NCBI GenBank assembly: GCA_949825025.1
Contig: OX463784.1
Span: forward strand, 9,245,431 to 9,309,430
Reading direction: 5' to 3'
From: Siphlonurus alternatus
Lineage: Eukaryota; Arthropoda; Insecta; Ephemeroptera; Siphlonuridae
DNA: 64,000 nucleotides
Shown here one piece after another: positions 15,701 to 48,500 of this stretch (positions are counted from its first letter, which is position 1; every line of letters begins with the position of its first letter). The translations under genes and the position numbers were made by a program. The notes beneath the pieces were generated by a model. The model was not told where the DNA came from and searched no databases. It was given only the letters and a program-made list of their open reading frames with translations.

Positions 15701-18170
15701 TTATGAGAGACTAACATCTTACATCAAATTAGTTTGCTTTCTTTCTTTAAATAAAATAATTTGCTGATATCTAGTGTGCTAGTGGGTTAGCTCAGTGGTA
15801 AACGCATCAGACTTCAAATTTCGTGGTTGCGTGTTCGATTCTTTCTCCCGGCGGGTTTTTATTAATACGTTTTTTTTTTCTTTAATTTTAAAATATTTAT
15901 GAATTCTAAAATTATAAAATGTGGTTAAAATATGGTTTACAGTCGTAATTGATAACTTTTTAATAGTAAAGAGAGGGAACAATATTAATAAAAAATTACT
16001 TCACTTTTATACGTTCAAATAAAACATTTTTCACACTGTCCCGAAGCTTGGTGTGGCACAGTGGCGAAGACGCAGCTAGAGCTCGTACTCTGACTCTGGC
16101 TTGTGGTGGAGAGTTTGATTCTCCACGTCGAAGGATTTTTTAAACTCGACACTTTTCTTTCCTTTAATTTAGTTTAATTTAATTAAAGAACATTTCTCCG
16201 CCACAGTGCCACACTAATTAAGCTATGAGCCTCGGTAAGAGAAATGTTTTATTGGAACGCGAAAAAGTGAAGTAATTTTTTATTAATATTGTTCCCTCTC
16301 TTTACTATTAAAAAGTTATCAATTACGATTGATAGTAGCTGTAATCCATATTTTAACCACATTTTATAAATTTAGAATTCATAAATATATTAAAATTAAA
16401 GAAAAAAAATGTACTTATAAAAACTCGCCGGAAGACAGAATCGAACCCGCAACCACAAAATTTGAAGTCTGATGCGTTTACCACTGAGCTAACCCACTAG
16501 CACACTAGATATCAGCAAATTATTTTATTTAAAGAAAGAAAGCAAACTAATTTGATGTAAGATGTTAGTCTCTCATAATTTTCTACTTTTTACGTATTAA
16601 ACAATATTAGAGCACGATAGAAGTTTTAAATCATATTTCAACCATAGTTTCCAGTGGTATGCGAACAAAATAAAGCTAAAATTGATCAAACGTAACCCAC
16701 ATTAAAACTTCAAAAATTTGAGGCGAGGAATTTCAAACGTGGCGCCAGCCATTTTGATTTTCATACCTGCATGTTCTCACCTAATCTCATCTATAGTGCA
16801 AAAGTACAAGAATGGTGTGACGTCAGAGGCGTCACGAGAGGCGGCACTCTCAAAATAATGCAACTTAATTAATTAATTAAAATTAGTTATAGGTCACAAA
16901 AAAATCTGAAACAATTCACAACGTCAAATTTTTACCCCTTCTTTCGATTAAGCCAATAAAATTTTTCGTTTCTAATTGCTCATTTTGGCATAATTAATAA
17001 AGATCTATATAATATGCTTCAAACAAATTCCACAGGTTGCAATGGTGCATGATATCTTGCTTTTAATTTTTATGTCCTTTTTTATTAGCAAATATGACCT
17101 AGTTAATTTTAAAGGTGCATTTCCATGAAGCAATGTCGAGCGGGGCTTGGCGGGGCTAGAACAGCGCACTTGCTATGGTAGCCATGTCGGCCAAAAAAAA
17201 AAAAAAAAAAAAACACTCCCCGCAAGGCGAGGAAATCCTGAGCCTCTGATTGGCTGTGGCACGCGATTTTCTCGCTTTCCGCGCTCCATGGAAATGCACC
17301 TTAAAAGTTGCAGCAAATTTGCCATAATCACATCTTTTATAATATATGTAGTCGATAACATACTGAAAATTGCTAATGTTTAAAAAAAAAAATACAGTAA
17401 TGAAATGAATTAATTCTTTAAAATCTGCAAATTAAATTACCTGGTTCAATGTCTCTGGTGGCAACCAGGTGTCGTCCGAAGGTCTTGTTGTACTTGAGAG
17501 CAATGCAGTCCGAGGCAGACGGAATCTCACGGTTGACGTTGGAACCAAGACTCGGAACTTCAAAGTTCAGAACACCAATGCTCTTGTCATGAGTCAAATC
17601 CTCAAACTCCTCCCCTGCCATGTCATCATCAATGTACTTCATTTGTGACTCAATGTTCAGTCTGATTTTCTCCTTTTCTTCTCTTACGATCATTGAATTA
17701 CGGTCCAAGGCTTCCATCGCATCATTAAAACTCTTTACAGCTCTGCCTACTTGACCTAATTTTTCATAGCAAGTTCCTTGGCGGATGTGGAGTTTGTGGA
17801 CTTGGTTGTCTGGATAACCTGTCTTAAGAGCTCGCTGACAATCAGCAATTGAATCTCTTAAGTAGCCCATGTCTTTCAACACTAAAGCTCGATTAGCAAA
17901 TGCTAATGGAAGGGCCTCAGAGTTTGGTGGAGCAAGTGACATGCTTTGAGTGTACAGTGACAATGCTTCATTGAATTCATACCTTCTGTATTTAGTATTA
18001 CCTTCTTCACGCAATTTTGACGCTTTTTCTGCGTTTTTCTGGTTAAAGTTTGGGGTCACGACAGGGACATCCTTTACTAAACCCTGCAGCAACATGGCGA
18101 CCCTAGCAGCGTCATTGGGAAGAATCTCAGTAAACATAAATTCGGTATGATCCCCCGAAATCCCTTCCAT
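12774..18170 (-). CDS. SMYD4: SMYD4-like SET/MYND/TPR protein, paralogue A
   Basis: Coding exons 18170-17441, 14524-14403 and 13868-12774 join with GT-AG introns (phases 1 and 0) to give 648 aa. TPR repeats fill roughly residues 45-150 (REEGN, LAFANRA, KTGYP). The SET domain opens with GRHLVATRDIEPG and is split by a complete MYND zinc finger (C266, C269, C279, C282, C288, C292, H300, C304). The SET core has NHSC at 456-459 followed by N462, and a post-SET CxCxxC at 514-519. SMYD4 proteins are putative lysine methyltransferases of cytosol and nucleus with roles in muscle and heart. The YG motif after NHSC reads SG here, so activity is doubtful. The start at 18170 is chosen because it matches the short N termini of B and the shared LPNDAARV block; an upstream in-frame ATG at 18302 would add a hydrophobic 44-residue leader that the paralogues lack. 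Confidence 0.9.
14897..15248. mobile_element. TTAA-flanked palindromic MITE (family 2)
   Basis: Perfect TTAA flanks, ends GGGTAAGGTAACGCCACC and complement, arms of about 165 bp, within intron 1 of SMYD4-like A. Confidence 0.85.
15783..15858 (+). tRNA. tRNA-like sequence (degenerate), left arm
   Basis: A- and B-box-like motifs have tRNA spacing and an anticodon-loop-like CTTCAAA, but D, anticodon and T stems pair poorly. It is probably a tRNA pseudogene or tRNA-derived element head, not a working tRNA. Confidence 0.35.
16425..16500 (-). tRNA. tRNA-like sequence (degenerate), right arm
   Basis: Inverted partner of 15783-15858. Its B box (GGGTTCGATTC) is better preserved, but the stems are still imperfect. 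Confidence 0.35.
17109..17304. mobile_element. TTAA-flanked MITE with AGGTGCATTTCCATG ends
   Basis: TTAA sites bound AGGTGCATTTCCATG and its near-complement CATGGAAATGCACC. The interior is GC-rich with an A19 run. It is in intron 1 of SMYD4-like A; open frames inside are not genes. Confidence 0.75.
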
Positions 18171-20250: not shown

Positions 20251-22785
20251 GTGAACCACAATTCGCGTGCCAACTTTTTTCGTAAATTTGGTATTGCAAA
20301 AATTTTCGCACAAACTTCAAACTTGGTACACTTGTAGCTGAGGGTTGTAAAAATTAGTTGAGGATGTTAAAATTTTTATTGGACACCAATAACACCCCTT
20401 TCAGGGGTGGTTTTTAAAAAAATTATTTTCGCCTTATGGGAATTCAATGCAAAATACAACTTTTTTTGAAATCATTGGAATTTTGCGGAAAAAGTTTCTA
20501 GCATAAGGTAATCGATCGTCCTGAACTCAGAAATAATTTTAGATTTTTTCCCCGACGCACCCCTGAGGGTGGAGACTTACCCCTAAAATCCATTTTCCTT
20601 AAAAATTGTGCTAAAATTATGAAATTAATTTTCAAGGGGTAATCGACCCTCCTGAACTCGGAAATAATTTTAGATTTTTTCCCCGACGCACCCCTGAGGG
20701 TGGAGACCTACCCCTAAAATCCATTTTCCTTAAAAATTGTGCTAAAATTATGAAATTAATTTTCAAGGGGTAATCGACCCTCCTAAACTCGGAAATAATT
20801 TTAGATTTTTTCCCCGACGCACCCCTGCGGGTGGAGACCTACCCCTAAAATCCATTTTCCTTAAAAATTGTGCTAAAATTATGAAATTAATTTTCAAGGA
20901 GTAATCGACCCTCCTGAACTCGGAAATAATTTTAGATTTTTTTCCCTGACGCACCCCTGAGGGTGGAGACCTACCCCTAAAATCCATTTTCCTTAAAAAT
21001 TGTGCTAAAATTATGAAATTAATTTTCAAAGGGTAATCGACCCTCCTGAACTCGGAAATAATTTTAGATTTTTCCCCGACGCACCCCTGAAGGTGGAGAC
21101 CTACCCCTAAAATCCATTTCCTTAAAAATTGTGCTAAAATTATGAAATTAATTTTCAAGGGGTAATCGACCCTCTTAAACTCGGAAATAATTTTAGATTT
21201 TTTCCCCGACGCACCCCTGCGGGTGGAGACCTACCCCTAAAATCCATTTTCCTTAAAAATTGTGCTAAAATTATGAAATTAATTTTCAAGGAGTAATCGA
21301 CCCTCCTGAACTCGGAAATAATTTTAGATTTTTTTTCCTGACGCACCCCTGAGGGTGGAGACCTACCCCTAAAATCCATTTATCTTAAAAATTGTGCTAA
21401 AACTATGAAATTAATTTTCAAGGAGTAATCGACCCTCCTGAACTCGGAAATAATTTTAAATTTTTTCTTTGACGCAGCCCTGAGGGTGGAGACCTACCCC
21501 TAAAATCCATTTTCCTTTAAAATTGTGAAATTAATTTCCTAGGTGTAATTGACCCTCCTGAACTCGGAAATAATTTTAGATTTTTTTCCCCGATGCAACT
21601 CTGAGGGGAAACTAGCTGCTACCCACCATATCCTTCTTTCTTAATTATCGAGTAGAAATTGCGAATTAATTTTTTTTCAGGATGTATCGAAATTTTTCAG
21701 AGAAAAAATATCCCAGACTGACCCCTTCACTTGCAGCATGACGATGGTTTCACTCAATGTGTCCACCGTTAATTGGCGTGATGGCACATGTTGGTCCGCT
21801 CAACGTGGCTATGTGTGTAGGTGCATAGCCTCTAACATCTGAGGTGTGACTAATTCCATGCAACGTCTGATCTCCACTTTCTGTTTGTCAATTCGTCTCA
21901 AATCTCTTCTTGTGAACATTTTTCTTCAGAAAGAGATTTGAGACCATTGACGAGCTAAAAGTGACAGACGTTATGTGGAATTGGTTACATCTCAGTTGTT
22001 AAGGGCACACATAGCCTCGTTGTGCAGACCAACATGTGCCTTCACGCCATGCAATTAACGGTGAACACATCCATCGTCATGCTGCAAGTGAAGAGGTGAG
22101 TCTGTGATTTTTTTTTATGAAAGATTTTGATATATTCCGAAAAAAATTTAATTCACAATTTCTACTCGATTATTAAGGAGAAAAGATATGGTGGGTAGCC
22201 GTTGACCATCAGGGTTGCGTTAGGGAAAAAATCTAAATTTATTTCCGAGTTCAGAAGGGCAGAGTACACCTTGAAAATTAATTTTACAATTTTATCACAA
22301 TTTTTAAGGAAAATGGATTTTAGGGGTAGGTCTTTACCCTCAGGGGTGCGTCAGGGAAAAAAACTAAAATTATTTCCGAGTTTAGAAGGGTCGATTACCC
22401 CTTGAAAATTAATTTCATAATTTTAGCACAATTTTTAAGAAAAATGGATTTTAGGGGTAGGTCTCCACCCTCAGGGGTGCGTCGGGGAAAAAATCTAAAA
22501 TTATTTCTGAGTTCAGGACGGTCGATTACCCTATGCTAGAAACTTTTTCCGCAAAATTCCAATGATTTCAAAAAAAGTTTTATTTAACATTGAATTTCCA
22601 TAAGGCAAAAATAATTTTTTTAAAACCACCCCTGAAAGGGGTGTTATTGGTGTCCAATAAAAATTTTAACACCCTGAACTAATTTTTACAACCCTCAGCT
22701 ACAAGTGTACCAAATTTGAAGTTTGTACGAAAATTTTTGCAATACCAAATGTACGAAAAAAGTTGGCACGCGAATTGTGGTTCAC

Positions 22786-27520: not shown

Positions 27521-28988
27521 GACGAACGAGACGACTAGTGAGATATTATTATTGCTTTCGTGTCACGTTTTTTGCTTAATTTATAGCAACAATACTTGAT
27601 TTACTGATTTACGTCCCCACCAGAAACTTCTCATTGCAATTTCACGGCTAGACCCATATGAACCGTTAATTTATCGTTAACCACCCAATTTCATCATTTT
27701 TGGGCCGACTATTTGAGATTGAGAGACTATTTTGCGAGAAATAAGTGACTTTTTAGGCGACTATTTTGTCAAAAATAGAGACTATTTTTGCGAACTCTAC
27801 TTATTCCTCATACAAAGACTATATTTTGGCTTCTGTTTATACACTAACAAAAAGTTACCGGTTTCTTTTAACCTGGAATTTCCATTTAACAAAGTGACTT
27901 ATCAGTCAACAACAACCATTTTCATAATCTTCATATTAGTAAATCTTACCCAGGTACAGTGCTGGCAGGGCAGCAGGGTACGGCTCAGTTTGATGCAGTG
28001 ACTGCAGTGAGAGAAGCTTAGAGACGGGTCCAGGATCACGGCAAAAGGCTCCTCAACAATCAACACTTCTCCTGAAATCAAAATAAAGACAGAAATGGGA
28101 ATAATGAAATGAAAAATTATAATTTTACAATATTAAAATATCGGTGCAGTGTGTGCAAGGTTTAATTCTTTTATAATAAAGAAAATTATGCCGCGCGTGT
28201 ACATAATAATAATACCGGTAGCTGTGGCGAATTCATCAAAGTAAAAAAAAATTATAATTACCAATCTCAATATCTCTGGTGGCAACCAGGTGTCGTCCGA
28301 AGGTCTCGTTGTACTTGAGAGCAATGCAGTCCGAGGCAGTCGGAATCTCAGGATTGACGTTGGACCCAAGACTCGGAACTTCAAACTTCAGAACACCAAT
28401 GCTCTTGTCACGAGTCAAATCCTCAAACTTCTCCCCTGCCAAGTCTTCATCAAGATACTTCATTTGTGACTCAATGTTCAGTCCGAGTTTCTCCTTTTCT
28501 TCTTTGCTGATTTTTGAATTACGGTCCAAGGCTTCCATCGCTTCATTAAAACTCTTCACAGCTCTGCCTATTTGGCCTAAATTTTCATAGCAAATTCCCT
28601 GACGAATGTAGAGCTTGTAAACTGAGTTTTCAGGATAAAGACGATAGCCAGTTTTTAGAGCTCTCTGAGTATCAGCAATAGAATCTGCAAAGTGACCCAT
28701 GTCTTTCAACACAGCAGCTCGATTAGCAAATGCCAATGAAAGGGCTTGAGAGTTTGGAGGAGCAAATGAGATGCTTTGAGTGTACAGCGATAATGCTTTT
28801 TCTTTAAAATTGTCACCCTTTCTGTAATAAGCATTTCCTTCTTCACGAAATTTTATCGCCTTTTCTGCAGATTTCTGGTTGTACATAGCGGTCAGTGCAG
28901 GAGTATCCCCAACTGCTTTCTGTAGCAACATGTCGACACGTGCAGCATCATCAGGCAGCACGCTCATAAATATCATTTCTTCAGCCAT
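25145..28988 (-). CDS. SMYD4: SMYD4-like SET/MYND/TPR protein, paralogue B
   Basis: Coding exons 28988-28262, 28071-27950 and 26230-25145 give 644 aa with the same intron phases as paralogue A. The start MAEEMIF is the first ATG of the open frame and puts LPDDAARV about ten residues in, as in A. The order of domains is TPR (REEGN, LAFANRA, KTGYRLYPEN with a small insertion relative to A), SET start (GRHLVATRDIEIG), MYND (HCSHC, LPCQHC, MFCSEAC, YHQLEC), SET core with NHSC, and post-SET CHCEAC. The residue matching the catalytic-site tyrosine of YG is Asn (FNGKSF). Exon 3 is clearly closer to A than to C. Intron 2 holds a palindromic MITE and a run of about 33 C. The hammerhead array starts about 370 bp upstream of the start codon. 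Confidence 0.9.
27165..27483. mobile_element. Palindromic MITE (family 1) in intron 2 of SMYD4-like B
   Basis: Same arms as 10323-10640, AT flanks, followed at once by a run of C (27485-27517). Confidence 0.85.
27485..27517. repeat. Homopolymer run of about 33 C
   Basis: Unbroken C run directly after the MITE end. Its true length is uncertain in any assembly. Confidence 0.9.
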
Positions 28989-29424
28989 CTCTCGCGTATT
29001 AACACGTTGACAATTTTATACTCACGATACTTTGCTACTCTTCTTTAATTTGTCGACGTAAATTTCAGAAATACGAAGATATTATTATTATTAGATTGTT
29101 ATAAACAGATTTTCGGCAACAGGTGAAGACACTGAAGACTTCCAGAAGATTCCATTATCCATTATTCCATTTTCCATCATTGCATATTCCATTTTTTTTC
29201 CTACTGTCGCACTGTTGCCATTCTTGTTATCTTGTTTGCGCTGATGCCAAATGGACTGCAAACGCTGCAACGCGCTGCGCGCGCTGCTGCCTGCTGCTGC
29301 AAATCGTGCAAATCGAAAAAGTAAAAAGCGCGAAATAATTCAAAGATCTAATTAATTGATTTTTTACATCAGCTTTCGTGTTGAACCTTGGCGCCACAGT
29401 ATAAAATAGCGATATTCAGTTCCA

Positions 29425-29505
29425 TAGCAGCATTCACTCTTATATCCATAGACCCGAGTTTCGCCTTTTCCAAGGCTCATCAGTATGGCTCGTAAGAGGC
29501 TGCTA
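29425..29505 (-). ncRNA. Type I hammerhead ribozyme, copy 1
   Basis: Core CTGATGA, stem II GCCTT/AAGGC closed by a GGAA loop, GAAA, a two-pair stem III with a four-base loop, and cleavage triplet GTC. Stem I pairs CCATA with TATGG, then an internal loop, CTCTTA with TAAGAG and TAGCAGC with GCTGCTA. All universally conserved core bases are present. The predicted cut is between 29451 and 29450 on the minus strand. Confidence 0.88.
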
Positions 29506-29978
29506 CTGACTGCCGAAGCAGTCAGTTCGCAACTGATGAGAGACGGGAGAGAGCACCGGCTTTTATTGCCAGCTTGCTTCCCCCACCTCTCACCATGACG
29601 TCACTCTGCTTCCCCATTGGTCGTGTTAACAACGGCTTCTAGAACTTTCAAAAAGTTACTAGAGAGGTCGTGGCACGGACCAACAGAGTAGCAAAGCAGA
29701 CATTATACTGCATGGATCTAAATATCACTATGAGTGAACGTTTTTGTATTCACTCATTAATTTATACTGTGTTTACTGACCATGTTGTCAGTTTTTTGGA
29801 GGTTGTGTGCTCACGTTAGCACCACGAATTTAAACCATAAAGGTCCTCCGGTAAGCGCCCCACGTAAGGCAGTTTAATGCATTTAGGTGAGTTTTCAAGG
29901 TCGCGATTGTTGATTTTTTACATCAGCTTTCGTGTTGAACCTTGGCGCCACAGTATAAAATAGCGATATTCAGTTCCA

Positions 29979-30059
29979 TAGCAGCATTCACTCTTATATC
30001 CATAGACCCGAGTTTCGCCTTTTCCAAGGCTCATCAGTATGGCTCGTAAGAGGCTGCTA
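29979..30059 (-). ncRNA. Type I hammerhead ribozyme, copy 2
   Basis: Identical to copy 1 over the full ribozyme. The predicted cut is between 30005 and 30004, so cleavage at copies 1 and 2 of a minus-strand transcript would release a 554-nt monomer. Confidence 0.88.
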
Positions 30060-30531
30060 CTGACTGCCGAAGCAGTCAGTTCGCAACTGATGAGAGACGG
30101 GAGAGAGCACCGGCTTTTATTGCCAGCTTGCTTCCCCACCTCTCACCATGACGTCACTCTGCTTCCCCATTGGTCGTGTTAACAACGGCTTCTAGAACTT
30201 TCAAAAAGTTACTAGAGAGGTCGTGGCACGGACCAACAGAGTAGCAAAGCAGACATTATACTGCATGGATCTAAATATCACTATGAGTGAACGTTTTTGT
30301 ATTCACTCATTAATTTATACTGTGTTTACTGACCATGTTGTCAGTTTTTTGGAGGTTGTGTGCTCACGTTAGCACCACGAATTTAAACCATAAAGGTCCT
30401 CCGGTAAGCGCCCCACGTAAGGCAGTTTAATGCATTTAGGTGAGTTTTCAAGGTCGCGATTGTTGATTTTTTACATCAGCTTTCGTGTTGAACCTTGGCG
30501 CCACAGTATAAAATAGCGATATTCAGTTCCA

Positions 30532-30612
30532 TAGCAGCATTCACTCTTATATCCATAGACCCGAGTTTCGCCTTTTCCAAGGCTCATCAGTATGGCTCGT
30601 AAGAGGCTGCTA
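30532..30612 (-). ncRNA. Type I hammerhead ribozyme, copy 3
   Basis: Identical to copies 1 and 2. The predicted cut is between 30558 and 30557, 553 nt from the copy 2 site. Confidence 0.88.
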
Positions 30613-30964
30613 CTGACTGCCGAAGCAGTCAGTTCGCAACTGATGAGAGACGGGAGAGAGCACCGGCTTTTATTGCCAGCTTGCTTCCCCACCTCTCACC
30701 ATGACGTCACTCTGCTTCCCCATTGGTCGTGTTAACAACGGCTTCTAGAACTTTCAAAAAGTTACTAGAGAGGTCGTGGCACGGACCAACAGAGTAGCAA
30801 AGCAGACATTATACTGCATGGATCTAAATATCACTATGAGTGAACGTTTTTGTATTCACTCATTAATTTATACTGTGTTTACTGACCATATGTTGTCAGT
30901 TTTTTGGAGGTTGTGGCTCTCTCCCGTCTCTCATCAGTTGCGAACTGACTGCTTCGGCAGTCAG

Positions 30965-31045
30965 TAGCAGCCTCTTACGAGCCATACTGATGAGCCTTGG
31001 AAAAGGCGAAACTCGGGTCTATGGATATAAGAGTGAATGCTGCTA
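30965..31045 (+). ncRNA. Type I hammerhead ribozyme, inverted copy 4
   Basis: Same ribozyme on the opposite strand, in the inverted partial unit. Core CTGATGA is at 30987-30993, stem II at 30994-31007, GAAA at 31008-31011, GTC at 31017-31019 with the cut after 31019, and stem I strands at 30972-30986 and 31020-31033. Confidence 0.88.
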
Positions 31046-31889
31046 TGGAACTGAATATCGCTATTTTATACTGTGGCGCCAAGGTTCAACACGAAAGCTG
31101 ATGTAAAAAATCAACAATCGCGACCTTGAAAACTCACCTAAATGCATCTAATTAATTCTTCAGCCAGAGACCTTAATTCTTCAGCAAGACCACAGAATTT
31201 TTATACAATTTTAAAGTAGCATTGTAAAAAAATAAATACAATAAATTATTAATTGATCTCTGCATTTTATGACCATGCATGCATCTCCTATTGGTCTTTA
31301 AATCTGATTCGCGCTAGCAGCATGTGTACCAAATTTGGACCCCATCATGCATATATTGATTTGATTTGTTTATTGGATCCAAAACAGAAGTTCCAGTTGT
31401 TGGATACATTGCAAATTACCCACGAGAAAAAAAATGCGAATAAATTGTGAATACGAGTGAAAAATTCACACATTTTCCCACATGTTGAAGCCGATTGACG
31501 ACTCTCTCATGCAGATTGATGCGTCATTCACGCATTTTAACAAATTTTTAATAATTTAACAAAATAAGTGTATTTCAAGCAATTTCGCCCATCCATATTG
31601 ACATATACTGATTAATATTCACATAGTTGACTAGAGCAACTCCACGCATTTTCACATAAATTGACGTATTTTTAATTTAGTATCAACTTCACCTCTATTG
31701 ATGCAAATTGAGTTGATTCCACTCGCCCATTTTCATGAATTTTCACGCAGTTTCATCCAATTATGATCCAACATTTTTTATAAAGTCAGTTCATGTATAC
31801 TGACGCACTTTCAGCCAGTTTGATGCAAAGTACGTTCACTCACTTTGAAACTTTTTCATGCACATTCACCCATTTGTCAACCAATTTTT

Positions 31890-32345
31890 TTCATAAAGTC
31901 CCCTCATGCAAATTGACATATTTTGACGCATTTTCACCAATTTGCTGACCATTTTTTTTCAGAAAGTCCCCTCATGCAAATTGGCACATTTTGACATATT
32001 TTGACGCATTTTCACCAATTTGTTGACCATTTTTTTTCATAAAGTCCCCTCATGCAAATTGACACATTTTGACATATTTTGACGCATTTTCACCAATTTG
32101 CTGACCATTATTTTTCATAAAGTCCCCTCATGCAAATTGGCACATTTTGACATATTTTGACGCATTTTCACCAATTTGTTGACCATTTTTTTTTATAAAG
32201 TCCCCTCATGCAAATTGACACATTTTGACATATTTTGACGCATTTTCACCAATTTGCTGACCTTTTTTTTTATAAAGTCCCCTCATGCAAATTGACACAT
32301 TTTGACATATTTTGACGCACTTTCACCCATTTGTTGACCTTTTTT
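31890..32345. repeat. Minisatellite, about 80-90 bp period
   Basis: About five units share the phrases AAAGTCCCCTCATGCAAATT, TTTTGACATATTTTGACGCA and TTTTCACCAATTTG, with small changes and variable poly-T. Confidence 0.85.
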
Positions 32346-33679
32346 TTTTTTTAGTAAAGACCCCTAATGTTTTTTCACGCATTTTCACACATTTTCACGC
32401 ACTTTGAACTATTTGTTCGACAATTTTTTTTAACAACATCCTTTTTAATTAGTGCATATTAATGTATTTTAACATATTTTCAGCATCTCTCAGTAGGAAA
32501 TTTGACGTCCCATGACCAGCAAGTGACGTCATGGAACAAGGCGTGAAATTTTTTTATTCATGTGAGGGGACTTAATTAGGAAAAAAATTAGTCGACAAAT
32601 GGTCGAAGTGCGTAAAAATGTGTGGAAATGCGTGAAAATACATTAGTGGTCTTTATTAAAAAAAAAGGGTCAACAAATGGGTGAAAGTGCGTGAAAAAGT
32701 GTGAAAATGCGTGGATATGCATGAAGGGACTTAATGAAAAATGTTGGTCGACAAATGGGTGAAAGTGCGCGTGGAAAAGTGTGAAAATGCGTGAATATGC
32801 ATGAGGGGACTTCATGAAAAAAATGTTCTACAAATCTGGTCACATGACCGGAAGTCATGTGACTTGGCGGTTGGTAGTAACACAAGATGGCTGACGCAGA
32901 GAGGTTATAGAAAGCTCCTCGTGTGTGTATGGTGATTTATGAGGTGTTTAAGTGAAGTTTTACTTATTCCTGAACATTATAAATAGTTAATTACAATGAA
33001 GTTAGGTTACCATTCGTTTGTCCAGTGTTAATATTTGCCATTTTTTCGCACTTTTTATGATGTAAAAAGAAAAAATTTAATGTTGCATTTTTGCCGGTCG
33101 AGTTTTCAAAATGTCAGATTTAATTGGAGTCGCATAAAATATCGAAGATTAAGCCACGACGAGAAGTTCTATCAGATAAGTAAAAACAGTTCTTATTAAT
33201 TTATTTAATTATGACGAAGTATAAAAATAATTCCTTTAATAGTTGAATTATTCAAAGGAATCATTAATTATAAAAAGTAGTGAAAACCTTATACTGCTAT
33301 ATATTATAGTCAGCCTAGTAAGTTTTTTTTTTATAAAAGCCTCTCATTTTATACTAGCTGTATATCTGTATACCGGCCTATATTTCTGTTTGTAAAAATT
33401 ATTGTTTTTATTTTGCTTTCGATGTTTGACAAATGAGAACAATCTTTATTACTGTACGTAAAAATTTGCGCGCGTTTCTTTGTGGATTTTTCGTACATTT
33501 CAGGTATCCATGGGGACTGAGGCCATGGGACTGCATTCACATCCAATGGTTTGGTGAGCTAGCCTGCGACGAAAAATGCATGAGACCATGTGTAAAAATT
33601 TGGTAAATGATGGTGTGAAAATTCATGGGAATGAATGAATTTTGCATGTATAGACTTTGTGAAAAAATTACTTGTTAAA

Positions 33680-34440
33680 TGTATGAAATTTCGTGAAAAG
33701 GTTTGAAAAATATTAAATTTGAATGACTGGAATTTGTAAAATAATATGGTTGATAAAAGCGTGAAAGTTCATGAAAAAGCGTCAAAATGAGTGAATTTGA
33801 AGGACTGAACTTTGTAAAAAATAATGGTTGATAAAAGTGTGAAAGTTCATGAAAAAGCGTCAAAATGAGTGAATTTGAATGACTGGACATTGTAAAAAAT
33901 TATGGTTGATAAAAGCGTGAAAGTTCGTGAAAAAGCGTCAAAATGAGTGAATTTGAATGACTGGACTTGGTATTTTTTTAATCGCTTTGCGATAAATGCT
34001 GTGATTGCATGTCCATTCATGATACCATGCATAAAATAAATAAAAAGATCTGTATGTCTAGTCCTCAAGAATTCTGTGATCAAGGGGAAGGAGAAATGAT
34101 TTGGATATTTGGATATGGCTCACTCATTTGGCGTGCAGGTTTTGAGTGGGCAGAGAGAGTGCCAGGTTACATCCAGGGCTTTGAACGAAGGTTTTGGCAA
34201 CTCAGCGAAGACCATAGAGGTGTTCCTGGCAAGGTACAGTATATGCATATATATATATGCATACACCACATGCAGACAAACAGACAAACAGATGCAGACA
34301 AACAGGACTTTGTAAAAAAATTATGGTTGATAAAAGCGTGAAAGTTCCTGAAAAAGCGTCAAAATGAGTGAATTTGAATGAATGGACTTAAGGAAAAAAA
34401 TTAATCAATGAAAGTGTGAAAGTTCACGAAAAGGCGTCAA
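33680..34440. repeat. Minisatellite, about 80 bp period, interrupted by the ChaC exon
   Basis: Units contain GGTTGATAAAAGCGTGAAAG, AAAAAGCGTCAAAATGAGTG and AATTTGAATGACTGGAC. The array stops near 33970 and resumes near 34305 after the ChaC exon segment, which also carries a short AGACAAACAG repeat. Confidence 0.85.
34054..34233 (+). pseudogene. CHAC: Orphan first exon of a ChaC-type gamma-glutamylcyclotransferase
   Basis: The exon encodes [12 protein letters not shown], then [12 protein letters not shown] and DHRGVPGK, followed by a donor-like [14 protein letters not shown] is the substrate-binding P-loop motif of ChaC enzymes, which degrade glutathione to 5-oxoproline and Cys-Gly, and [13 protein letters not shown] is the adjoining conserved block. 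The conserved start is the ATG at 34096; an in-frame ATG at 34054 or 34009 would add 14 or 29 residues. No later ChaC exon (WGVAY block, catalytic Glu region) was recognised downstream. Both sides are minisatellite, and the segment from about 33970 to 34305 interrupts the repeat. I therefore treat it as a captured or orphan exon rather than a working gene. Confidence 0.7.
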
Positions 34441-34549
34441 AAATGTGCGAGCCAGTATACCTGAAAGTGTGTGAATTCGAGCGAAGTATTTTGGTGGCAG
34501 GCATTTACGTCAATATTTGTTAATATTAATCAAATTACATGAAAATGTG

Positions 34550-35040
34550 CCAATATATGATATCAAATTCACTCGCGCATATTGACTCAGAAAAGGGGCG
34601 AAATTTAGGTGAATTGGAGTCAATATGCGCGAGCCAATATACCTGAAAGTGCATGAAGTCGAGCGAAGTATTTCGGCAGGCATTTACGTCAATACTAATC
34701 AAAATACGTGAAAATGCGTCAATATAAAGTACCAAACATCGCCAAAGTGCATCAATACACGTTAATTCACTTGCGCATATTGACTCTAAAAAGGGGCGAA
34801 ATTTAGGTGAATTGGAGTCAATATGCGCGAGCCAATATACCTGAAAGTGCGTGAAGTCGAGCGAAGTATTTCGGCAGGCATTCACGTCAATACTCGTCAA
34901 TATTCATCAATATACGTGAAAATGCGTCAATATAAAGTACCAAACATCGCCAAAGTGCATCAATACACGTTAATTCGCTCGCGCATATTGACTCCAAAAA
35001 GGGGCGAAATTTAGGTTAATTGGAGTCAATATGTGCGAGT
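34550..35040. repeat. Minisatellite, about 190 bp period
   Basis: About two and a half units share GGGGCGAAATTTAGGTGAAT, ATATGCGCGAGCCAATATAC and GTATTTCGGCAGGCATT. Apparent open frames here are repeat translations, not genes. Confidence 0.8.
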
Positions 35041-45539: not shown

Positions 45540-48500
45540 CACGGGTATATTATATAATATATACTCTAAGAAAAATGTGAACAATTTAACGAATTAGCCT
45601 GAAATGTAAGCAACTTCTTTAGCGCCGCATTTGCATTAACTTTTTTTTTTCATAAGAAAGAGTCTTTGAAATTAAGAAAATAAAAAATCTTATTATTATA
45701 TATTTTAATATTATTATATTAATATAGTTGTTATACAATATTTTTAATATTTTTTTAAATAATAATAAAGGTTGAACTGTGTAAAATATATTTTAAATAA
45801 AAATATATTAGACATATGTATTCTGTTAAAACTTAAAACAATCTAAATGCGTATACATGATTAATATGGCTTCATCATCGCTGGAAGAAGATTAAATTGC
45901 ATTTAACATATGAAGAAAGAACTGCAGCTGTAAAATTAATTGAATGACTTTCAATCAGAGCAGTGGTAAGTCATCGTGGCCTTCAGTTGTGTGACAGAAA
46001 CAACTCGACTGTTCCGTACAAAGTATAAATAAGAACGCGTGTTTATAAAATCACCACTTTCACTGTTTTAACTTAAAATTACTTTTGATGTCTGAGAATT
46101 AGACAAAAATTTATAATATATAAATACACAGCCCTTATAAAAAAGCTTCATCATGAATGATGCATTATTATAGGACCATTTCCACAATTATCCATGTTAC
46201 AATTAATCGTCATATTATAATATATATTTTTTTTAATTTTTAATCAAACCCTATTGGGTACTTCTATTTACTAATTACATACTACTTTGAAACCCCGAAC
46301 CTTCCGAAACCCTAACTTGAGCGTTTCGCGGGCTCTTCTGGAACGGGGGCGGCCACGGCCTTGCAAATCCATCCTGGCATTTGCCTGCGGCTGAGGGAAA
46401 CGTGGAAACCTCAGCCAGGATGGACGCTACAGCTTTTGTCAATGAACCGGAAGTGCAATGGTCCAAAGCCAGGGGAACCACATAGTGGAAAAGCGCAACG
46501 TTTTACCCCTGGGTGGGAAACGTGGTTTTTGTTGAAAATGGTCACCCATCCAACTACTAACCACGCGCGGCGTTGCTTGACTTCGGTGATCTGACGAGAC
46601 CCGGTCAAGCGCACTGCGCCACACCTCCCACTGGTTATATACTTATTATATATAAGTATTGATCCTAAAATGAGACATTAAATTAGTGGAAAGACTAAAT
46701 ATGTATACATAGTATATAAACTATATATAATAAAAAAATCTAAACTATAAATATATCATTAAAAAAAGCAAATAAAATTTTTGAAAAAAGGAATTTAATC
46801 TTCAGAAACAATTATTATTATTTTTTTTTTTTTTAGAGGGATACACCCCTAAGAGCTTACAGCTCGCGGCGGGGTACTGGGTAGGGATAAGGTAGGGAAC
46901 GGATGTGGCCACGGCCTGCATGCTTACGCGTCCCAGCATTCGCTGAGGTGAGACTGAGGGAACCGTGGAAAACCTCAGTCAGGACGGACACCTCTACTTT
47001 TTCTCAATGGACCAAAGCGATATCCAAAGCCTGGGGAACCACACACAAGTGCATTACTGCACTGGGTGGAAAGCGAGACGAATTTACCCCAGGGAGGGAG
47101 CAGCGTATTTTTTACTTGAAACGGTCACCCATCCAAGTACTAACCACGCTCGACGTAGCCTGACTTCGGTGATCTAACGAGAACCGGTCAATGCACTGCG
47201 CCACGCTCGACCTTAAATTAATTAATTTTAATTTAATTAATTTGTGAAGAAAATGCTATCTCCTTATTTTTTATCGCTATTATTAAGATCCCTGACCCCA
47301 CAAAAAGAAAAGAAAATTTCAAAGTTAGCCCCCTCTCCATATTTATCCAATATTGGGTAAATTTATTTGTTGTTATTTGCCGGATGTTTATTCTAATGAA
47401 ATACACATGATATATATTATACATATTATATAATACAAAATAATTGTACAATAATTAAACCTCAAGAGTTTAGAAACCTCGTGTTCGGGGAAGAAGTTTA
47501 AATTAAGAGTCTGCTCATGCCTATTAAAATGGATTAAATAATCATTGTCTCTTTTAAAATACTGCAGTGTTTATAGTTAAAATTAATTATTGGTACGTGT
47601 TGTCTATCTATTATATGACTTATATATATTAAACACTTTTATACTTGTCACACATCTATTATAGCTATCTCTCTCACAAATCGCACCTGGTTTGTGGCTG
47701 GTTTGATGTTACAAATAAGCAGCACGCGTGCCATCATCTCCTCGCTGAAGTTGGAGACTCCGATGGAGCGCACGAGCTTCTTGGTCACCAGCTGTTCCAT
47801 CGCCAGCCACGTGTCAACGTAGTCACGTGACGTAAACACGATCTTGCCGTCCGAGTCGCGCTCTGACGTCGCACCGGACTGTTGCTGTAGTCAAATTATT
47901 ATTAAATTAATTAAGTAAAAAATAAATAAATAAAATCATAATTAATAATGTCGAGTTTTAAATTTTTGTTATCTCCATGCTTTTTTTTTTTTTTTTTTTT
48001 TACACGGTAGATTGTTGTTAATTTTTGAATTTGTTATATTATCTAGAGTGATTTATTTTGAATAATAGAAGTAATAGTAAAATAATTATCAAGATGCCGA
48101 AAAGAAAGCTCAATTTTTATTAATATTATTATAATAAATGAACAAATTGTTTATTTTATAAACCCCTATAAATTATTTTAAATTACAATTTTATTATTGC
48201 TGAGTAAATAAAAATATTCACATTTAAACTTATAATTTATACTCTAAAATATATATTACATTAAAATTATACTAAATAAATTAATGTATTTTAATTAAGA
48301 GGGTACAGTATTTTTTTAGCTGTAGAATAATTTATAATAACATATAATTATGTGGAAAGTTTTAGAAATTGAGACACAAAAGAAATTAGAGTTTTAAAAA
48401 TATTTACGTCAATTTAGGGCAAGCAATTTTGCTTTAATTCTCAATAAAATAAAAATACTGTTGCAGAGAAGAGGGTGAAAAGAAGGTTATTATGAGAAGG

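Follow-up and report, generated by a model that had tools for sequence, protein, structure and literature searches.

Known hammerhead repeats and Penelope-like elements

The closest described systems are the non-LTR retrozymes of metazoans (Cervera and de la Pena 2020, PMC7229834), presented in the available text as tandem, ORF-less units of about 170-400 nt with type I hammerheads, a GC content below 45-50%, RNA that is more than 70% self-paired, and duplications longer than 4 bp. Penelope-like elements are proposed there as a strong candidate for their mobilisation. Plant LTR retrozymes (PMC4918200, PMC7761336) are also non-autonomous, with a hammerhead and a circle, and in the accessible parts of these papers have a type III hammerhead, an LTR, a PBS, a PPT and a 4-bp duplication. 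Among insects, the pDo500 repeat of Dolichopoda cave crickets (463-505 bp) contains a hammerhead and is described as satellite DNA, with no mention of mobile ends in the available portion of that report (PMC2808323). Penelope itself, according to the sections at hand of PMC3846280, has inverted pLTRs, a 31-bp tail at one pLTR, 8-10 bp duplications, and a TATA plus Inr, while the excerpted text of PMC11167929 reports that a Penelope enzyme begins reverse transcription at two internal sites in vitro, with both strands cut and extended.

The window (the whole 64,000-nt stretch of Siphlonurus alternatus DNA analysed here) contains a hammerhead array that is one 1788-bp insertion between two copies of a 12-bp duplication, ATCTAATTAATT, and is probably a non-autonomous animal retrozyme inserted by Penelope-type machinery. 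It shares with metazoan retrozymes the tandem type I hammerhead units, the lack of an ORF, the length of the duplication, and the low GC content (44.7% in this 553-nt family, 41.7% in a second family found elsewhere in the genome). Predicted self-pairing of the unit RNA reaches 72% in the 553-nt family (z of -10.8 linear, -11.1 circular), the second family pairing less (57%, z of -5.4). The units, at 553 and 631 nt, fall outside the size range given for metazoan retrozymes in the available text of PMC7229834, a range that describes reported sizes and implies no mechanism; the insect repeat pDo500 is of comparable length. In that comparison with retrozymes, only the present families have their arms head-to-head and their ends at two fixed positions. 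The type I hammerhead and 12-bp duplication distinguish the element from plant retrozymes, with which it would share the circle, and its mobile ends distinguish it from pDo500 as described. Likeness to Penelope-like elements, as far as the consulted parts of PMC3846280 and PMC11167929 describe them, extends to inverted arms, a tail of about 31 bp on one end, short duplications, a TATA plus Inr in the repeat and, in some, a hammerhead in the repeat. Unlike them, the present unit has a canonical rather than minimal hammerhead and lacks the reverse transcriptase/endonuclease ORF; it could therefore only be a non-autonomous Penelope rider.

In the literature searched, part of which was represented by titles or abstract openings alone, no hammerhead element was found to be described as having Penelope-type ends at two sites. 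Nor was the joint evidence met there, namely two ORF-less hammerhead families with coupled N/T ends and promoter-like motifs.

Structure of the insertion and its ribozymes

On its minus strand the insertion comprises 2.8 units of 553-554 nt, with a 232-nt plus arm standing head-to-head to them (Table 1). Of the two outer ends, that of the minus arm lies at unit position U553, the 'no-tail' (N) end, and that of the plus arm 33 nt further, at U33, the 'tail' (T) end. An earlier note had described a tandem array of hammerheads from 29358 to 31145; these limits are the edges of the insertion, flanked by the 12-bp duplication, and the minus units are indeed in tandem, but the plus copy belongs to the same insertion, as its second, head-to-head arm. 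The evidence supports that interpretation as right but incomplete, the head-to-head arms and Penelope-type ends having been missed.

Table 1. Features of the insertion, in window coordinates
Feature	Position	Strand	Remark
Target site duplication ATCTAATTAATT, left, 12 bp	29346..29357	.	exact match to 31146-31157
Target site duplication ATCTAATTAATT, right, 12 bp	31146..31157	.	exact match to 29346-29357
Whole insertion, 1788 bp, two head-to-head arms	29358..31145	-	arms overlap duplication by 2 bp at each edge
Unit A, 554 nt	29356..29909	-	outer end 29356 is the 'no-tail' (N) end
Unit B, 553 nt	29910..30462	-	reference unit
Unit C, partial	30463..30915	-	5' end of minus arm; gapped BLAST match reaches 30919
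Opposite arm, 232 nt	30916..31147	+	100% identical to unit; outer end is the 'tail' (T) end
Hammerhead ribozyme A	29437..29498	-	predicted cut between 29451 and 29450
Hammerhead ribozyme B	29991..30052	-	predicted cut between 30005 and 30004
Hammerhead ribozyme C	30544..30605	-	predicted cut between 30558 and 30557
Plus-arm hammerhead ribozyme	30972..31033	+	predicted cut between 31019 and 31020
CCAAT box, unit C	30722..30726 (also 30169-30173, 29616-29620)	-	putative function
CRE-like TGACGTCA, unit C	30702..30709 (also 30149-30156, 29596-29603)	-	putative function
TATA-like AATAAAAG, unit C	30667..30674 (also 30114-30121, 29560-29567)	-	putative function
Initiator-like TCAGTT, unit C	30638..30643 (also 30085-30090, 29531-29536)	-	putative function

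Across the whole window, exact CTGATGA...CGAAAC cores occur at 29458-29483, 30012-30037 and 30565-30590 on the minus strand and at 30987-31012 on the plus strand; shuffled windows gave an expectation of 0.01 cores, and none of 100 shuffles held four. The claim made at the outset, of four identical type I hammerheads with three on the minus and one on the plus strand, is thereby confirmed, and the distances between core starts are the claimed 554 and 553 nt. The GTC cut site, 5-bp stem II, GGAA loop, 2-bp stem III and long stem I with an internal loop attributed to them are all readable in the sequence, stem III being closed by a TCGG loop and stem I formed of 5 + 6 bp around the internal loop. 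When the isolated 74-nt ribozyme is folded, stems I and II are predicted as drawn, and in the minimum-energy fold CUGA pairs with UCGG, replacing the 2-bp stem III.

The suggested check against Rfam hammerhead models gave weak support for this family: a scan of the window at the gathering score returned no hammerhead, whereas with an E-value threshold all four matched Hammerhead_HH9 (RF02275) at 23.4 bits (E 0.0072), below its gathering score of 52. Two IMG/VR contigs from a pattern scan were rejected as relatives of the unit, as neither resembles it by eye; one has a RAGATH-1-hammerhead match of 39 bits, below gathering.

Unit composition and promoter-like motifs

The longest ATG ORF is 47 aa on the circularised 553-nt unit, and 45 aa in the second family. 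Each unit presents a promoter-like order of CCAAT, CRE, AATAAAAG and TCAGTT, followed by the ribozyme; from the beginning of the initiator-like motif to that of the ribozyme core is 53 nt. The second family likewise has CCAAT and TATAAAAG, then CAGT 33 nt on. Retrozymes seem promoter-less in the available part of a review (PMC7761336), unlike the present unit with its promoter-like boxes. The TATA-to-CAGT spacing was reached by 4/2000 and 0/2000 shuffles, for a pattern that was chosen after viewing the sequence. The mean fraction of loci differing is 0.034 for CCAAT, 0.007 for CRE, 0.022 for TATA and 0.013 for the initiator, against 0.027 overall; on these figures the boxes do not clearly exceed the remainder of the unit in conservation, that remainder itself varying little between loci.

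Genomic copies and their paired ends

The genome-wide search for further units that had been advised was carried out on the assembly containing the window (455.7 Mb, with the window on contig C7), and 40 loci, scored out of 220 candidates, were fetched with their flanks and read. Arms are head-to-head in 30 of these 40 loci and single in 10; 19 of 73 mapped segments are more than one unit long. The element is considered mobile because an exact flanking duplication of at least 8 bp accompanies 23/30 head-to-head loci, as against 28/870 mismatched flank pairs. Duplications are of 12 bp in 11 loci, and are richer in A+T than the flanks (86% vs 67%); the seven head-to-head loci without an exact 8-bp duplication count against the preferred reading. 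The earlier view of a non-autonomous element accords with these duplications, with the shortness of the ORFs (none with an ATG exceeds 47 aa), and with the compensatory changes in the ribozyme stems described below. Spread of ordinary satellite DNA by unequal exchange, to which the tandem units and their high identity would be suited, is very hard to credit for 40 dispersed loci, most with their own duplications, and with fixed ends and opposite arms.

Outer ends were classed as N or T within ±14 nt and then within ±8 nt. At the wider tolerance, 54/60 outer ends of head-to-head loci and 10/10 3' ends of single arms lie at N or T, and the 30 head-to-head loci divide into 24 N+T, one N+N, no T+T, four T+other and one other+other; at ±8 nt the division is 20 N+T, one N+N, five T+other, three N+other and one other+other. 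Of the 25 loci in which both ends are assigned to N or T at ±14 nt, 24 thus pair one N with one T, and with a free 1:1 choice at each end the chance of at least 24/25 mixed pairs is 8e-7. Counting against the preferred reading, at the same tolerance, are the one N+N locus among those 25 and the five of 30 with at least one end elsewhere. Seven further places of the 553-nt family stand among the hammerhead matches listed, and of three that were read, L053 and L066 are N/T and L065 is a single arm with a T end.

Head-to-head arms might also arise if a single cDNA folded back, so that the opposite arm copied the first with no second priming; palindromic inverted structures are read as self-priming in the consulted part of PMC3846280, and two loci (L022 and L040) share a 5' position between arms, with several others close. 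In 28/30 loci, however, the two arms have different 5' positions, and the second arm too ends at a fixed start site. One arm may be longer than the other by as much as several units (435 against 1946 nt in one locus, 1157 against 3693 nt in another), and for this inequality fold-back copying was disfavoured and is regarded as improbable.

Ribozyme conservation and the copied template

Ribozymes were compared in 91 units from 38 loci of the 553-nt family. CTGATGA is kept in 33/33 distinct versions, and 94.9% of stem cells are paired, compared with 27-52% when the alignment is slid. Double changes occur in stem II (C435A/G444T in L015, L025 and L029) and in stem I (A423G/T461C in L021 and L046), giving seven alignment cells changed on both sides of a pair, a number that none of 500 shuffles reaches. 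To be set against this, only two pairs have changes on both sides, as many as in 66/500 shuffles, and the number of pair types is reached by 42/500. Overall, the stems show compensatory changes that keep them paired. The cut-site C is changed in one L015 unit. Core change G12A affects one unit each in L025 and L038, whereas L044, a locus inserted with a 14-bp duplication, has it in its three units, across both arms.

With G12A in every unit, L044 probably represents a dead ribozyme that was still copied, which counts against the preferred reading. In vitro, ribozyme mutants also inserted (PMC11167929, in the excerpt available). An alternative template would be a multimeric linear RNA, transcribed from a genomic array and left uncut, with the ribozyme being incidental or acting at another step. 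L044 speaks for such a template, as do the mixed units of L043 and L050 (in the latter, units differ in a G run and in having an extra AT), which likewise count against the preferred reading, and the same portion of PMC11167929 judges unprocessed RNA to be the dominant Penelope substrate in vitro.

Private variants bear on this choice. They were counted as events, at sites covered by at least three (or at least two) copies of a locus. At sites with at least three copies there are 28 events, five in all copies, 22 in one, and one in between (L043, 2/8 copies); at sites with at least two copies there are 90, of which 21 are in all, 68 in one and one in between. The five all-copy events span both arms, and come from L014, L025, L044 (twice) and L048. 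In L014 an inserted A is present in 9/9 copies, and G445A is in all nine and elsewhere in just one L030 copy. A linear template predicts variants in several but not all units, a class represented by the single intermediate among the 28 events, themselves small in number, although the observed distribution would also be expected from a source array of uniform units; on balance an uncut linear template is considered rather unlikely. The all-or-one distribution fits a monomer bottleneck, most simply a circle, but the informative events are few.

A more specific version of the circular reading is put forward tentatively, being on the doubtful side: one RNA circle may serve both break ends at once, with a Penelope-type dimer starting at sites 33 nt apart and each member extending one strand. 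Coupled starts on one circle would then account for one tailed and one tailless end in nearly every classed copy, and derivation of both arms from one circle for the occurrence of some private variants in every unit of both arms.

A second hammerhead family

A hammerhead pattern matched 231 places in the genome and none in a reversed control, and many of the matches listed belong to a second family with a 631-nt unit and no clear similarity to the 553-nt family. Twelve of its loci were read. The counted ends themselves served to define its N and T positions, which lie about 33-35 nt from each other, and on this basis 8/10 both-ended copies are N+T (L055, L061, L078, L080, L082 with L083, L084, L085 and L087), L086 has N plus an end about 22 nt past T, and the ends of L067 lie elsewhere; single arms with a T end are seen in L054 and L064. 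Exact duplications of 14-15 bp flank 4/9 both-ended loci lying in one piece. A likeness between the start sites of the two families is faintly suggested, the similarity being reached by 7/100 shuffles.

Three hammerheads of the second family in L062 score 34.1 (gathering 34) and 31.8, just under, against the type I model RF00163, and 25.7 against HH9. The same locus has, at 2679-2925, strong but sub-gathering matches to miRNA models on both strands, and this stretch is perhaps a long palindrome.

Penelope-like elements and the putative inserting enzyme

Penelope-like elements were sought with a composite probe, and two groups, PLE-A and PLE-B, were found in the genome, with reverse transcriptases in tandem and head-to-head arrays. 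PLE-A has tandem units of 2910 bp with an 869-aa frame (RVT_1, E 1.6e-15) and a GIY-YIG-like stretch seen by eye and not reported by Pfam. One whole PLE-A unit and part of PLE-B were read, and the PLE-A unit contained no hammerhead at E<=1. Matches to the start of its ORF, 40 scored of 90 candidates, include 15 that run through, 23 that stop at query positions 36-49 (about 34-47 nt after the ATG), one that stops at 63, and one inverted piece. A guessed start-site motif was rejected, because 23/40 scored matches stop elsewhere than at it; this failure and the lack of a hammerhead in PLE-A count against the preferred reading.

The genome also has 4484 first-look candidates for RVT_1, of which 150 matches were scored, and no Penelope partner was matched to the element. 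A LINE or other non-Penelope enzyme might therefore move it, with the two end positions reflecting RNA structure alone, and the 15-bp duplications of Nematostella hammerhead repeats are likened to those of LINEs in the available part of PMC4918200. Such an enzyme is nonetheless held to be unlikely, since head-to-head arms with a tail at one end are described for Penelope (PMC3846280) and two internal start sites were observed with a Penelope enzyme (PMC11167929), both in the sections consulted.

Direct Penelope-like units of about 2910 bp form arrays of six (C1:418119-434464) and nine (C9:2379466-2406550); the units of both are identical over the 271 nt compared, opposite-strand pieces accompany them on C9, and the arrays appear to have been amplified recently. 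PF01541 (GIY-YIG) matches were rejected as Penelope elements, coming instead from a gene that we take to be SLX1-like and from a bacterial-looking contig. The latter (L051, on C85) is a 17-kb contig with bacterial-looking genes in this animal assembly.

Proposed mechanism and implications

What was observed comprises the ribozyme sequences with their compensatory changes, the units, the duplications, the N/T pattern in two families, some private variants common to both arms and the Penelope-like elements with reverse transcriptase; we infer that the units are transcribed and cleaved, that a circle forms, which type of enzyme acts, and in what sequence the steps occur. Host Pol II would start at the internal CCAAT/TATA/initiator promoter and transcribe through the units, and the hammerheads would cut the transcript into monomers of about 553 nt, to be circularised by a host ligase. 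In AT-rich DNA, a Penelope-type reverse transcriptase/endonuclease would nick the two strands with a stagger of about 12 bp; each nick would prime from N or T, fixed sites 33 nt apart, with both broken ends extended and each reverse transcriptase perhaps circling the template more than once. Joining of the two cDNAs would leave head-to-head arms, one with an N end and the other with a T end, flanked by a duplication of about 12 bp.

The ends of the copies suggest a Penelope-type enzyme as the mover of these elements, one that writes DNA into each side of a break, and the insertion scars carry this Penelope-type signature in two families without clear mutual sequence similarity. Were a single circle to serve both ends, two reverse transcriptases would follow each other round it, and animal retrozymes would be Penelope riders with their own Pol II promoter. 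The one-N-one-T pattern lends itself to counting, both in other genomes and in in vitro insertion assays.

Neighbourhood in the window

An ORF exon on the minus strand (28236-29012), with the element about 340 bp upstream of it, is by reading of the ORF probably SMYD4-like; a protein search with this exon returned six proteins, and the matches carry TPR domains. Pieces of several similar genes, SMYD4-like on the same ORF reading, are arranged in tandem across 12774-41028, and the first exons at 28820-28951 and 17984-18115 share DNA similarity. A 5S rRNA-like match of 43.5 bits on the minus strand (46511-46632) could be a gene, pseudogene or SINE. Tandem repeats with periods of 131 bp and about 78 bp (and 198 bp) occur at 20507-22531 and 31913-35039.
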